Shown one piece after another: positions 28,399-41,949 of a DNA stretch of 64,000 nt. The stretch lies in the NCBI GenBank assembly GCA_023267855.1, contig JALNLN010000005.1:21558-85557 (forward strand). The letters run 5' to 3'. Positions within the stretch are counted from its first letter, which is position 1, and the number at the start of each line of letters is the position of its first letter. Origin of the DNA: Candidatus Geocrenenecus dongiae (lineage in GTDB: Archaea > Thermoproteota > Nitrososphaeria_A > Caldarchaeales > Wolframiiraptoraceae). A model generated the notes under the pieces. The model was given only the letters and a program-made list of their open reading frames with translations, did not search any database and had not been told where the DNA came from. The position numbers and the translations under genes were made by a program.

Positions 28399-28449
28399 GA
28401 AGCATCTACAGGAATAGAAGATACCGCAAACCAGATAGTAAGAAACACA

Positions 28450-28450
<1 letters not shown>
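28399..28450 (+). other. 5' arm of 23S pre-rRNA processing stem
   Basis: GAAGCATCTACAGGAATAGAAGATAC is the exact reverse complement (26 nt) of sequence at ~31553-31578; pairing continues through CCAGATAGTAAG. Confidence 0.9.
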
Positions 28451-31520
<3,070 letters not shown>

Positions 31521-31525
<5 letters not shown>

Positions 31526-31578
31526 CTAGGTGGTCTTACTATCTGGGCGAAAGTATCTTCTATTCCTGTAGATGCTTC
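31521..31578 (+). other. 3' arm of 23S pre-rRNA processing stem
   Basis: GGGCCTAGGT...CTTACTATCTGG...GTATCTTCTATTCCTGTAGATGCTTC pairs with 28399-28457. Confidence 0.9.
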
Positions 31579-37784: not shown

Positions 37785-38088
37785 GGGCGAGCGGCGGGGC
37801 GGGTCACGGGGCACTCCCGAGGAAGTTCCTCCCCCATTAGAAGGCACGTGGCACCGTGAGGTGCTGGGGGAGACCCCAGGCAACGCATCAGAAACGAAAC
37901 CCCTCCACTTACAATGAAGATGAGACAGCTGTGCAAACTGTTGAAAGAGTGGGTGGAGAGTGGTTGAAACGGGCGGCCCACGTGGGGAAAGGCTGGGGGT
38001 TCTATGATCCTGCCTTCGGAGAGACCCCTGGAAACCGACAAGACGAATCCCGCCTAAATACAGAAGGAGGGCTACCGCCGCACGCCCC
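37785..38088 (+). ncRNA. rnpB: RNase P RNA (archaeal type)
   Basis: GC-rich ~304 nt; P1 ends pair (GGGCGaGCGGCGG / CCGCCGCaCGCCCC); GAGGAAGTTCCTCCCCC, GACCCCAGGCAACGC, CCTAAATACAGAAGGAGGGCTA resemble conserved RNase P regions. Confidence 0.88.
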
Positions 38089-38985: not shown

Positions 38986-39142
38986 TGAAAGCAGTATCTT
39001 TTTGTGAAATAAGCGGTACAATATTTTAATTTTTAAACTGTGAAAACATAAAATTAGAACTCATGTTTTTACTTATATCTTCAACATAAACTTAAATTTA
39101 TTAACTCAGATGATTTCATTATTACACGGGTTTAGAATTTTC

Positions 39143-39883
39143 ATGGATGTTACCGTCGTTTTTCCTTCCAGAAATCGGGAGAAGTATGTTGCCAGAGCTG
39201 TACGTACAGCTTTTAAGGCTAAGCATGTTCATGAAGTTATAATTGTTGATGGTGGGAGTTCTGACAATACGGTAAATATTGCTTTAAAAGAAGGAGCCAA
39301 GGTAATTATTCAAAGTAATCTGGTTTATCCTGGTAAGGGTGTAGCTATGAGGGATGGAGCTTATCTTTCATCTGGAGACATAGTAGTCTTCGTAGACATC
39401 GATATCGCTAATCTTACATCACAATTCATAGAGAAACTGTACATGCCGATAATGAGGGGGGAAGCAGAATTTGTTAAAGGATGTTTTGAGAGAGCTGCAG
39501 GCAGGGTCACAGAACTCGTAGCTAAACCTCTTCTAAGAATGTTTTATCCTGAGTTAGCTAAGTTTAAACAACCATTGAGTGGAGAGATTGCTGGTTTGAG
39601 GAAAATCTTCTACCAGGTAGAATTTGAGAATGGGTGGGGTGTAGATGTAGGCCTACTAATAGACTTATACAATAAAGGCGTAAAGATCATTGAAGAAGAT
39701 CTAGGATTTAAAGAACATGAAATGAAGCCTCTTCACGCTCTTACAGATATGGCTTATCAAGTAGCTGAAGCAATATTGAAGAGGGCTATCAGAGATAGGA
39801 AAATAGATGAAAGCTGGGCGAAGAGATACCTCTCAACTGTAGGTGAGATAGACTTAGGTATGGAAGGAAAGGGATACGCATGA
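39143..39883 (+). CDS. Family 2/81-type glycosyltransferase resembling glucosyl-3-phosphoglycerate synthase
   Basis: IVDGGSSDNTVNIALKEGAKVI, PGKGVAMRDGAYLSSGDIVVFVDIDI, AGRVTELVAKPLLRMFYPELAKFKQPLSGEIAGLR; ORF track starts at 39110 but internal Met at 39143 (MDVTVVFPSRN) is more plausible. Confidence 0.8.
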   Translation: MDVTVVFPSRNREKYVARAVRTAFKAKHVHEVIIVDGGSSDNTVNIALKEGAKVIIQSNLVYPGKGVAMRDGAYLSSGDIVVFVDIDIANLTSQFIEKLYMPIMRGEAEFVKGCFERAAGRVTELVAKPLLRMFYPELAKFKQPLSGEIAGLRKIFYQVEFENGWGVDVGLLIDLYNKGVKIIEEDLGFKEHEMKPLHALTDMAYQVAEAILKRAIRDRKIDESWAKRYLSTVGEIDLGMEGKGYA

Positions 39884-40542
39884 GATCTATAGTTATAGGA
39901 GGTGGTCATTCAGCATACTTCGTAATTACAACTCTGAGAGAGATAGATCCTAAGGGAAGAATAATAATCATAGAGTTTACGTCTGAGAAAATCGAGATGC
40001 TTAAGAAGACTTTCCCATACGCGGAAGCCATACAACAAAGTGTAGACAGAGTGGAAGAATATATTGCTGAAAATCGTTCTCTTATAGACGTCCTTGTATC
40101 CGCTACAGACTCAGATGCCCTCAATCTAAGATATGCTAAACACTCGATTAAGAATGAGATACCGATGGTAATCGCTGTCTTGAACAACCCCCTCAATGAA
40201 CCTATATTCATAAAAGAAAACATAAGATGTTTAATCAACCCTTATAAGATGATCACGTCTAAAGTCAAGGAGATAGTAAACAAGTTTTCAGTCAATACCG
40301 TGTACGAGTTTTCTAGAATCAATGGAGGAATCTATGCTCTAAAAATTGAGGATACAAGAATTCTACGTAAAGTCCAGAGTTTTATACTGAAGAAGAATCT
40401 TCCATTCTTTACAATATCTGTTGATGGTAAAGTGAGAGCTAGCTCTATAAAGAATATAGAGATCGGAGATGTAGTATACGTCGTATGTGTAGATAAAAAT
40501 ATTAGAGACCTTCTAGAAAAGATTGTGGAAGGTGGAAAATGA
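39880..40542 (+). CDS. RCK (TrkA-N/TrkA-C) regulatory protein
   Basis: N-terminal nucleotide-binding pattern IVIGGGHSAYFVITTLREID...VLVSATDSDALNLRYAKH; C-terminal TrkA_C-like SSIKNIEIGDVVYVVC; ATGA overlap. Confidence 0.78.
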   Translation: MRSIVIGGGHSAYFVITTLREIDPKGRIIIIEFTSEKIEMLKKTFPYAEAIQQSVDRVEEYIAENRSLIDVLVSATDSDALNLRYAKHSIKNEIPMVIAVLNNPLNEPIFIKENIRCLINPYKMITSKVKEIVNKFSVNTVYEFSRINGGIYALKIEDTRILRKVQSFILKKNLPFFTISVDGKVRASSIKNIEIGDVVYVVCVDKNIRDLLEKIVEGGK

Positions 40543-41276
40543 CCCCGGAAGAATATTCCCTCATGATAAGAATAATCTTCGCAGGGCTCTCCATAATTCT
40601 TTCGATATTCCTAGGCTTAAAATTAAGAGGGATAATAACGAGGAATCTAAGCAAGTTTGGTCAATCGTTTGCCTCAAAATTTGCCGAGGTGTTAAGATAC
40701 TTTCTTATAATTTTAGGGACGGTCATAGCATTCAGCATACTAAGTCTAGACGTAGTAGTACTGACAGGTATATCCATCGGGATATTCATAGTTATATTGA
40801 TAAGCATTAGAGATATACTTTCAAATTATGCTGGAGAAATCTATCTGAGAGTCAGGAGACCATTTAGTGAAGGAGACTTCATAAGAATTGGAAGATTCTC
40901 TGGTAGAGTATTATCGATAAATAGTCAAGATGTAGAGGTCGTATCTCCTGAGGGAGAAAGAATAATAATCCCGAATCAGTTCTTCCTTAGACATCCAGTA
41001 ATAAATAAGTCATCAACAATACCTACATCCATAGAGATGAAAGTAGTTTTCAAGGGGTTGGAGATCGATAAAGCTGAAGAGGCCATAACTGAAGCATTAA
41101 ACGAGATCAGACCCGAGCTCTTCGAAGATCCCAGGATAATCTCGATCAACCAGAGAAATGGTAGAGTCGAGATTATTGTACTACTCCACATAGTGAACCA
41201 GCGGAAGATAAAATGGGTGATAAACAAACTCTCCAGCGAGCTTCATAGAAGAGGTGTTGAGATTGAGATCGAGTAG
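40539..41276 (+). CDS. MscS-family mechanosensitive ion channel
   Basis: TM helices then SIRDILSNYAGEIYLRVRRPFSEGDFIRIGRFSGRVLSINSQDVEVVSPEGERIIIPNQFFL. Confidence 0.92.
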   Translation: MTPEEYSLMIRIIFAGLSIILSIFLGLKLRGIITRNLSKFGQSFASKFAEVLRYFLIILGTVIAFSILSLDVVVLTGISIGIFIVILISIRDILSNYAGEIYLRVRRPFSEGDFIRIGRFSGRVLSINSQDVEVVSPEGERIIIPNQFFLRHPVINKSSTIPTSIEMKVVFKGLEIDKAEEAITEALNEIRPELFEDPRIISINQRNGRVEIIVLLHIVNQRKIKWVINKLSSELHRRGVEIEIE

Positions 41277-41949
41277 GGCCATAGTGTTAGACCTTGATGG
41301 AACACTGACGAAAGGCGGGGAAGAGAGGGTGGCTCCAGAGCTGAGGAGCATGCTCGAGCAATTTAAGAGAGATGGATGGCTACTAATATTGGCTACTGGG
41401 AGAGATAAGAAGTATCTTGAGTCTAGAGATGATTTAAGAAACCTATTTGATGGATGGGTTTGTGAAGCAGGCATCTCAATATACATTCCCTCAACAAACG
41501 ATTACAGGATATTGGTTGATGAACGGTGGCTTCAATTTATCAGTGAAGTAAAAAGGAAAGTAAAATGCGTAGTCTTCAAAGAAAATACAGTGAACCTGTT
41601 ATCCAAAGAATGTATAGGAGAAATCAACGAGATCGCTTCTAGGATCGGTGTACACTATAAGGTGCTGAATAATAAGGGTTCACTATTACTACTTCCTACC
41701 AATACTGATAAATATACAGGGTTAAATGAATTACTAAGATTAATGGATTTTCATGGATATCTGGTTGTGATCGGGGACTCGGAAATAGATATTGAGATTC
41801 TTAAGAACGCTGATTTCAAAGCTGCCCCCTCGAATGCAGACCAAGCTGTCAAAGAAATAGTAGACTATCTTTCTTCAGGAGAAGATGGTGAAGGAGTAAT
41901 TGAGATACTGAGAAATCTTAGACATAAATTTAAATTTATTGGAAAATAA
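41254..41949 (+). CDS. HAD-superfamily (Cof/SPP-like) phosphatase
   Basis: VLDLDGTLTKGGEERV, LATGRDKKYLE, VVIGDSEIDIEILKNADFKAAPSNA. Confidence 0.88.
   Translation: MLRLRSSRAIVLDLDGTLTKGGEERVAPELRSMLEQFKRDGWLLILATGRDKKYLESRDDLRNLFDGWVCEAGISIYIPSTNDYRILVDERWLQFISEVKRKVKCVVFKENTVNLLSKECIGEINEIASRIGVHYKVLNNKGSLLLLPTNTDKYTGLNELLRLMDFHGYLVVIGDSEIDIEILKNADFKAAPSNADQAVKEIVDYLSSGEDGEGVIEILRNLRHKFKFIGK

Follow-up and report, generated by a model that had tools for sequence, protein, structure and literature searches.

A GT81-like glycosyltransferase operon with adjoining RCK and MscS genes in Caldarchaeales, and a recurrent archaeal gene pair that may form a ligand-gated MscS channel

Why should an archaeal operon place the gene for a soluble RCK protein between the genes for a glycosyltransferase and an MscS-family channel? 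RCK domains are familiar as switches on K+ channels, on Trk/Ktr transporters and on Kef antiporters, and MscS is known as a tension valve. The arrangement was found in a stretch of DNA of 64,000 nucleotides (hereafter the window) from a Wolframiiraptoraceae (Caldarchaeales) MAG of 1.44 Mb. This MAG is 98% complete and consists of 39 contigs, so that gene absences in it are not absolute. The operon extends from 39110 to 41949 on the plus strand and, according to the ORF calls, comprises four co-directional genes in the order GT81-like glycosyltransferase (GT), RCK, MscS and HAD-IIB phosphatase. The ORF coordinates bear out the original prediction of four same-strand ORFs with successive overlaps of 4 bp, 4 bp and about 23 bp. 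Judging from the position at which its orthologues start, the GT probably begins at an ATG at 39143. Candidate starts of the HAD gene are the GTG at 41254 and a nearby TTG, and its overlap with the MscS gene may therefore be 14-23 bp. Between a transaldolase-like gene and the operon lies an archaeal RNase P RNA (37787-38085, plus strand; RF00373, 178 bits), which is unrelated to the operon; the ORFs called across it are spurious. The window also contains a complete archaeal 23S rRNA (28449-31531, plus strand), and no SSU rRNA was detected at threshold within its 64 kb; the rRNA genes of the host appear to be unlinked here.

The first gene (39110..39883, plus strand) encodes a Pfam Glycos_transf_2 protein that is 88-89% identical to the nearest named records, which are from Geocrenenecus. 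Its best curated model is the NCBIfam model for GpgS (NF010496, E 4e-59), and because the score of 200 bits lies under the cut-off of 262 bits, the exact 'GpgS' function is not claimed. Among the solved structures in the PDB its best relatives are GpgS (7p5l, 9e-33) and MpgS of Rubrobacter (3f1y, 1e-28). A profile of the archaeal GTs ranked the PDB entries similarly, with GpgS (5e-42) and MpgS (7e-36) ahead of mannosylglycerate synthase (7e-14) and dolichol-phosphate mannose synthase (3e-12). The motifs YPGKG, DxD, GRVTELVAKPLL, QPLSGE and KxH are invariant or nearly so in an alignment of the archaeal set. In Mycobacterium tuberculosis GpgS, P112-G113-K114 bind the nucleotide, D136 and H258 the metal, and V186-T187 the carboxylate of 3-phosphoglycerate (PMC2581804). 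All of these residues are aligned in the window GT, where PGKG, DxD, GRVTE and a loop His match the donor, metal and 3-phosphoglycerate positions and are kept in relatives. Curated models and PDB ranking thus both group the enzyme with the GT81 GpgS/MpgS proteins, as had been predicted, and not with the dolichol-phosphate synthases. A role as a dolichol-phosphate or S-layer GT was rejected in view of weaker model scores (AglJ, 68/325 bits) and the PDB ranking. By these likenesses, the window GT is likely to transfer glucose or mannose to 3-phosphoglycerate, the two sugars not being separable on this basis.

The last gene (41254..41949, plus strand) had been taken for a Cof/SPP-like HAD phosphatase, and this is confirmed by its matches to Hydrolase_3 in Pfam (70 bits, E 3e-19) and TIGR01487 in NCBIfam (E 3e-28). 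The HAD motifs D13/D15, T48, K153 and D175/D179 are invariant in an alignment of 10 orthologues. The closest NCBIfam model is that of archaeal phosphoglycolate phosphatase (99 bits, cut-off 123), and the protein scores below the cut-offs of the curated MpgP models TIGR01486 (24.6/164.75 bits) and TIGR02461 (24.5/244 bits). It should be noted that the scores of the GT and the HAD protein under curated cut-offs count against the explanation that we consider best. HAD phosphatases are operon or fusion partners of GT81. In three genomes from other families (G089, G156, G242) the gene order is GT81, RCK, SerB-like HAD and MscS, which indicates that the class of phosphatase was exchanged and the set kept, and in Hadarchaeum a single ORF (L048:7992-9395, plus strand) represents a GT81 fused to a SerB-like HAD. 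The swap and the fusion, both seen outside the window, are the best support for a pathway of synthase plus phosphatase, with the window HAD as a candidate glycosyl-3-phosphoglycerate phosphatase for the second step. The fused Hadarchaeum gene sits inside an apparent A-type ATPase gene cluster. A route from NDP-sugar and 3-phosphoglycerate to a sugar-glycerate is thus the likely reading of these two genes. Glucosylglycerate made by GpgS and GpgP is the primer of methylglucose lipopolysaccharide (MGLP) in mycobacteria (PMC4555173), and GT81 and HAD could in the same way make a polysaccharide or glycolipid primer in place of a compatible solute. We consider this improbable, since the operon has no polymerizing, methylating or acylating gene and GT81 is constantly linked to a solute channel.

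The gene order is conserved in relatives of the host. It is intact in the loci L037-L043 and L047, which belong to Wolframiiraptoraceae, Nezhaarchaeota and Hecatellales; at L044 and L046 the operon is interrupted by contig ends, and at L045 GT, RCK and MscS are present and a HAD match is absent. Because the same four genes recur in the same order in relatives with identities down to 33-45%, the operon is not a product of chance. Within the host family, 9 genomes carry the GT, the RCK and the orthologous MscS, and 12 carry none of the three. Across the phylum sample a strong GT81 match was present in 19 genomes, 15 of which also have RCK and MscS with the GT. The operon of G006 is split across two contigs, the GT of G198 is broken, and G319, G282 and G333 hold divergent GT81 copies in other contexts. 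In view of the conserved order and the co-inheritance, the possibility that the operon is an unrelated co-transcribed set was rejected. Two further loci were observed. At L049 (659-1152), a GT81 gene 87% identical to the window GT is frame-shifted and has no RCK, MscS or HAD downstream, which is module decay in one MAG. L224, in another archaeal family, has an asparagine-synthase-like gene directly behind a divergent GT81-like gene, and an MscS gene lies close by.

The two inner genes encode the proteins that the original prediction had named. The second (39880..40542, plus strand) specifies a soluble RCK/KTN protein of 220 aa, with a Pfam TrkA_N score of 33.9 bits (cut-off 23.8) and TM1088B as closest PDB sequence. 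Its structural model (pLDDT 87) has the RCKs of KtrA, TrkA and MthK as best Foldseek matches, with E-values down to 3e-9. Pfam TrkA_C is absent from this protein and present in 48 of 59 MscS-linked RCKs; the model has a second alpha/beta lobe that aligns over its full length with KtrA and MthK, the overall TM-score of about 0.48 probably resulting from lobe orientation. The third gene (40539..41276, plus strand) specifies a 245-aa protein with MS_channel_2nd (PF00924; 41.9 bits, cut-off 20.2), three TM helices, a beta domain and an alpha/beta domain. For the model of this protein (pLDDT 81), the best Foldseek match is E. coli MscS (6vyk), at full length and with an E-value of 9e-15. The overall TM-scores of the two models are only about 0.45-0.5, probably through differing domain orientations, and the folds were therefore assigned from the E-values and not from the TM-scores.

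Does the RCK of the host have another membrane partner? A K+ channel elsewhere in the genome had been named as evidence that would speak against the predicted link, and family searches, on which our statements of absence in the host are based, gave no match to TrkH or Ion_trans_2 in its genome (controls matched in 11 of 14 genomes). On this ground a partnership of the RCK with TrkH, or with a K+ channel of the 2-TM type, was rejected for the host. The TrkA_N family search of the host genome missed the window RCK, and it was consequently not used as proof of absence. The relatives G006, G018 and G021 do carry Ion_trans_2 channels. The host has one Na_H_Exchanger antiporter (PF00999; an ORF of 403-413 aa with no apparent fused RCK), which is possibly the main remaining rival partner. 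Kef antiporters are regulated by RCK domains in bacteria (PMC10224563), and both facts favor a reading in which RCK and MscS are merely co-expressed in an osmotic regulon, the MscS being purely tension-gated and the RCK regulating a transporter elsewhere, for example this CPA antiporter. We regard such mere co-expression as rather unlikely; within the host family the RCK is gained or lost along with the GT and the MscS, which argues against it, as does part of the wider survey described below.

To see how far the pairing extends, 398 Thermoproteota genomes were surveyed with an RCK profile, which matched in 156 of them, and the neighborhoods of about 108 best RCK matches were read. In 70 of these loci the RCK gene has an MscS gene at a distance of at most 100 bp. 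The MscS gene is invariably on the 3' side of the RCK gene; the two are on the same strand in 59 loci and overlap in 25. Three further GT81 loci have a phosphatase gene between RCK and MscS, which brings the total to 73 loci in 69 of the 398 genomes and in 20 families, although the survey favors MscS-linked RCKs because its profile was built from such RCKs. Pfam confirmed MscS in 52 of 60 scanned neighbors and TrkA_N in all 59 scanned RCKs. No RCK-MscS gene fusion was seen at the surveyed loci, a point against control of MscS by the RCK. With few MscS genes in a genome of about 1,600 genes, we estimate chance adjacency at well under 1%. The pairing is thus real and far wider than had been guessed. 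It had also not been known to be described, and in agreement with this a search of 5.39 million open-access papers gave no description of it.

RCKs that are located away from MscS have a TrkH neighbor in 24 of the 30 cases scanned, plus three CLC channels. No PF00999 protein occurs among these scanned neighbors, which weakens the case for an antiporter as the RCK's target. At L158, L173 and L178 a stand-alone RCK gene and an adjoining gene for a CLC chloride channel are divergently oriented, CLC being one more non-K+ neighbor of RCK; at L193 and L200 the RCK gene is convergent with an amino acid permease gene, in the same genomes that hold the RCK-MscS pairs L117 and L113. In about 25 loci TrkH also stands beside the RCK-MscS pair, and since it adjoins the pair, the RCK may serve TrkH there. 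The RCK-MscS association may thus partly reflect a K+ osmotic cluster, and these TrkH-RCK-MscS trios are a point in favor of mere co-expression. However, 30 genomes with an RCK-MscS pair, the host included, have no TrkH match. The trios include L147, L148, L189, L192, L195, L197, L199, L201, L203 and others, and in several of their MscS-like proteins the pore helix is strongly diverged and the usual Gly/Ala pattern is missing from it. Within classes, the distances among RCKs rise with those among MscS proteins (r 0.84-0.98), a value that ignores kinship and that shared inheritance would give likewise.

In a tree of the RCKs, those linked to GT81 fall into a single group (SH-aLRT 99, in a quick tree with long branches and one long-branch intruder). 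Their glycine-rich loop holds an invariant His, and E32, the acid that ends strand 2 at the nucleotide ribose site, is present in 14 of 14. In KtrA, E125 is the Glu of the cation site (PMC6957272). At the column after a conserved Pro that putatively corresponds to it, KtrA itself being outside the alignment, Glu occurs in none of the 14 GT81-linked RCKs versus 13 of 21 TrkH-linked RCKs, and Tyr occurs in 10 of the 14. With Glu missing from this putative site, the ligand of the GT81-linked RCKs may differ from ATP/Mg. The separate grouping, the invariant loop His and the missing Glu would also fit an RCK that senses a metabolite such as NAD(H) or 3-phosphoglycerate for the biosynthetic enzymes, controlling for instance GT81 and not the channel. 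We hold this to be very unlikely, because GT81 is missing from the vicinity of most RCK-MscS pairs and the constant partner of the RCK is therefore MscS. On the channel side, 10 of 15 unlinked MscS proteins, a small and non-random control set, have Gln at the pore-helix position that aligns with R91 of the window MscS, where most RCK-linked ones carry R, W, K or Y.

Putative control of MscS by the RCK is the most likely reading and, taken singly, the one that explains the pairing best. From the genes, their predicted folds, order and co-inheritance, and the lack of TrkH and Ion_trans_2 matches in the host, we infer activities, a ligand, a contact and a mode of gating as follows. GT81 would join the sugar of an NDP-sugar to 3-phosphoglycerate, and the HAD enzyme, in view of its family, motifs and partnership with GT81, would strip the phosphate to yield glucosylglycerate or mannosylglycerate. 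MscS would be the exit valve for solutes, K+ among them, and possibly for the sugar-glycerate anion. The RCK would act as the cytosolic ligand sensor, its Rossmann site binding a nucleotide, probably an adenine nucleotide, or a metabolite, and it would alter the opening of MscS in the way known for RCK rings on TrkH, KtrB and K+ channels. Against this stands that RCK rings are mostly octameric and MscS is a heptamer, so that contact between them would involve a symmetry mismatch. The GT81 operon would be a specialized version of the pair, marked by a separate RCK group and by changes at the ligand site. That the operon serves to synthesize and handle a charged sugar-glycerate solute, that its RCK gates MscS and that RCK-MscS is a widespread archaeal unit is a reading for and against which we see the balance as even. 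Slightly more tentative is the general proposal that the RCK-MscS pair encodes a ligand-gated MscS channel widespread in archaea, a two-gene system in which RCK gating has moved onto the MscS fold and which in one lineage is tied to sugar-glycerate synthesis, placing production and release under one metabolite signal. That the pair recurs in 20 families of archaea, in many cases in the absence of TrkH, leads to the prediction of a metabolite-gated MscS, which is directly testable and, if true, would show how thermophilic archaea time solute release. The data also point to an osmolyte pathway in Caldarchaeales, among them the cultivated Wolframiiraptor gerlachensis, in whose published description osmolytes and mechanosensitive channels are not mentioned.

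The operon can be compared with several known systems. As with GpgS/MpgS, a phosphatase gene follows the window GT and a GT-phosphatase fusion exists in Hadarchaeum; in contrast to them, the window GT is shorter (about 246 aa), falls under the curated GpgS cut-off and is linked to a channel and an RCK. The phosphatases are of the HAD-IIB archaeal phosphoglycolate type or SerB-like, and are neither curated MpgP nor the mycobacterial GpgP Rv2419c. The predicted channel resembles E. coli MscS in its three TM helices, beta domain and C-terminal alpha/beta domain, but its pore helix has neither the Gly/Ala-rich pattern nor the Gln that many unlinked MscS proteins of the same phylum share, and it is encoded together with an RCK. 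MscK of E. coli is an MscS-type channel under ionic (K+) control, yet it is a large single protein without an RCK, whereas a small MscS and a separate RCK gene are present here. With KtrAB/TrkAH, which are K+ uptake systems gated by RCK, the locus shares a stand-alone 220-aa RCK of the KtrA/TrkA fold, a gene position beside the presumed membrane partner and the acid conserved where strand 2 ends. It differs from them in that the membrane neighbor is MscS and not TrkH/KtrB, and in that the GT81-linked RCKs lack the Glu putatively equivalent to KtrA E125.
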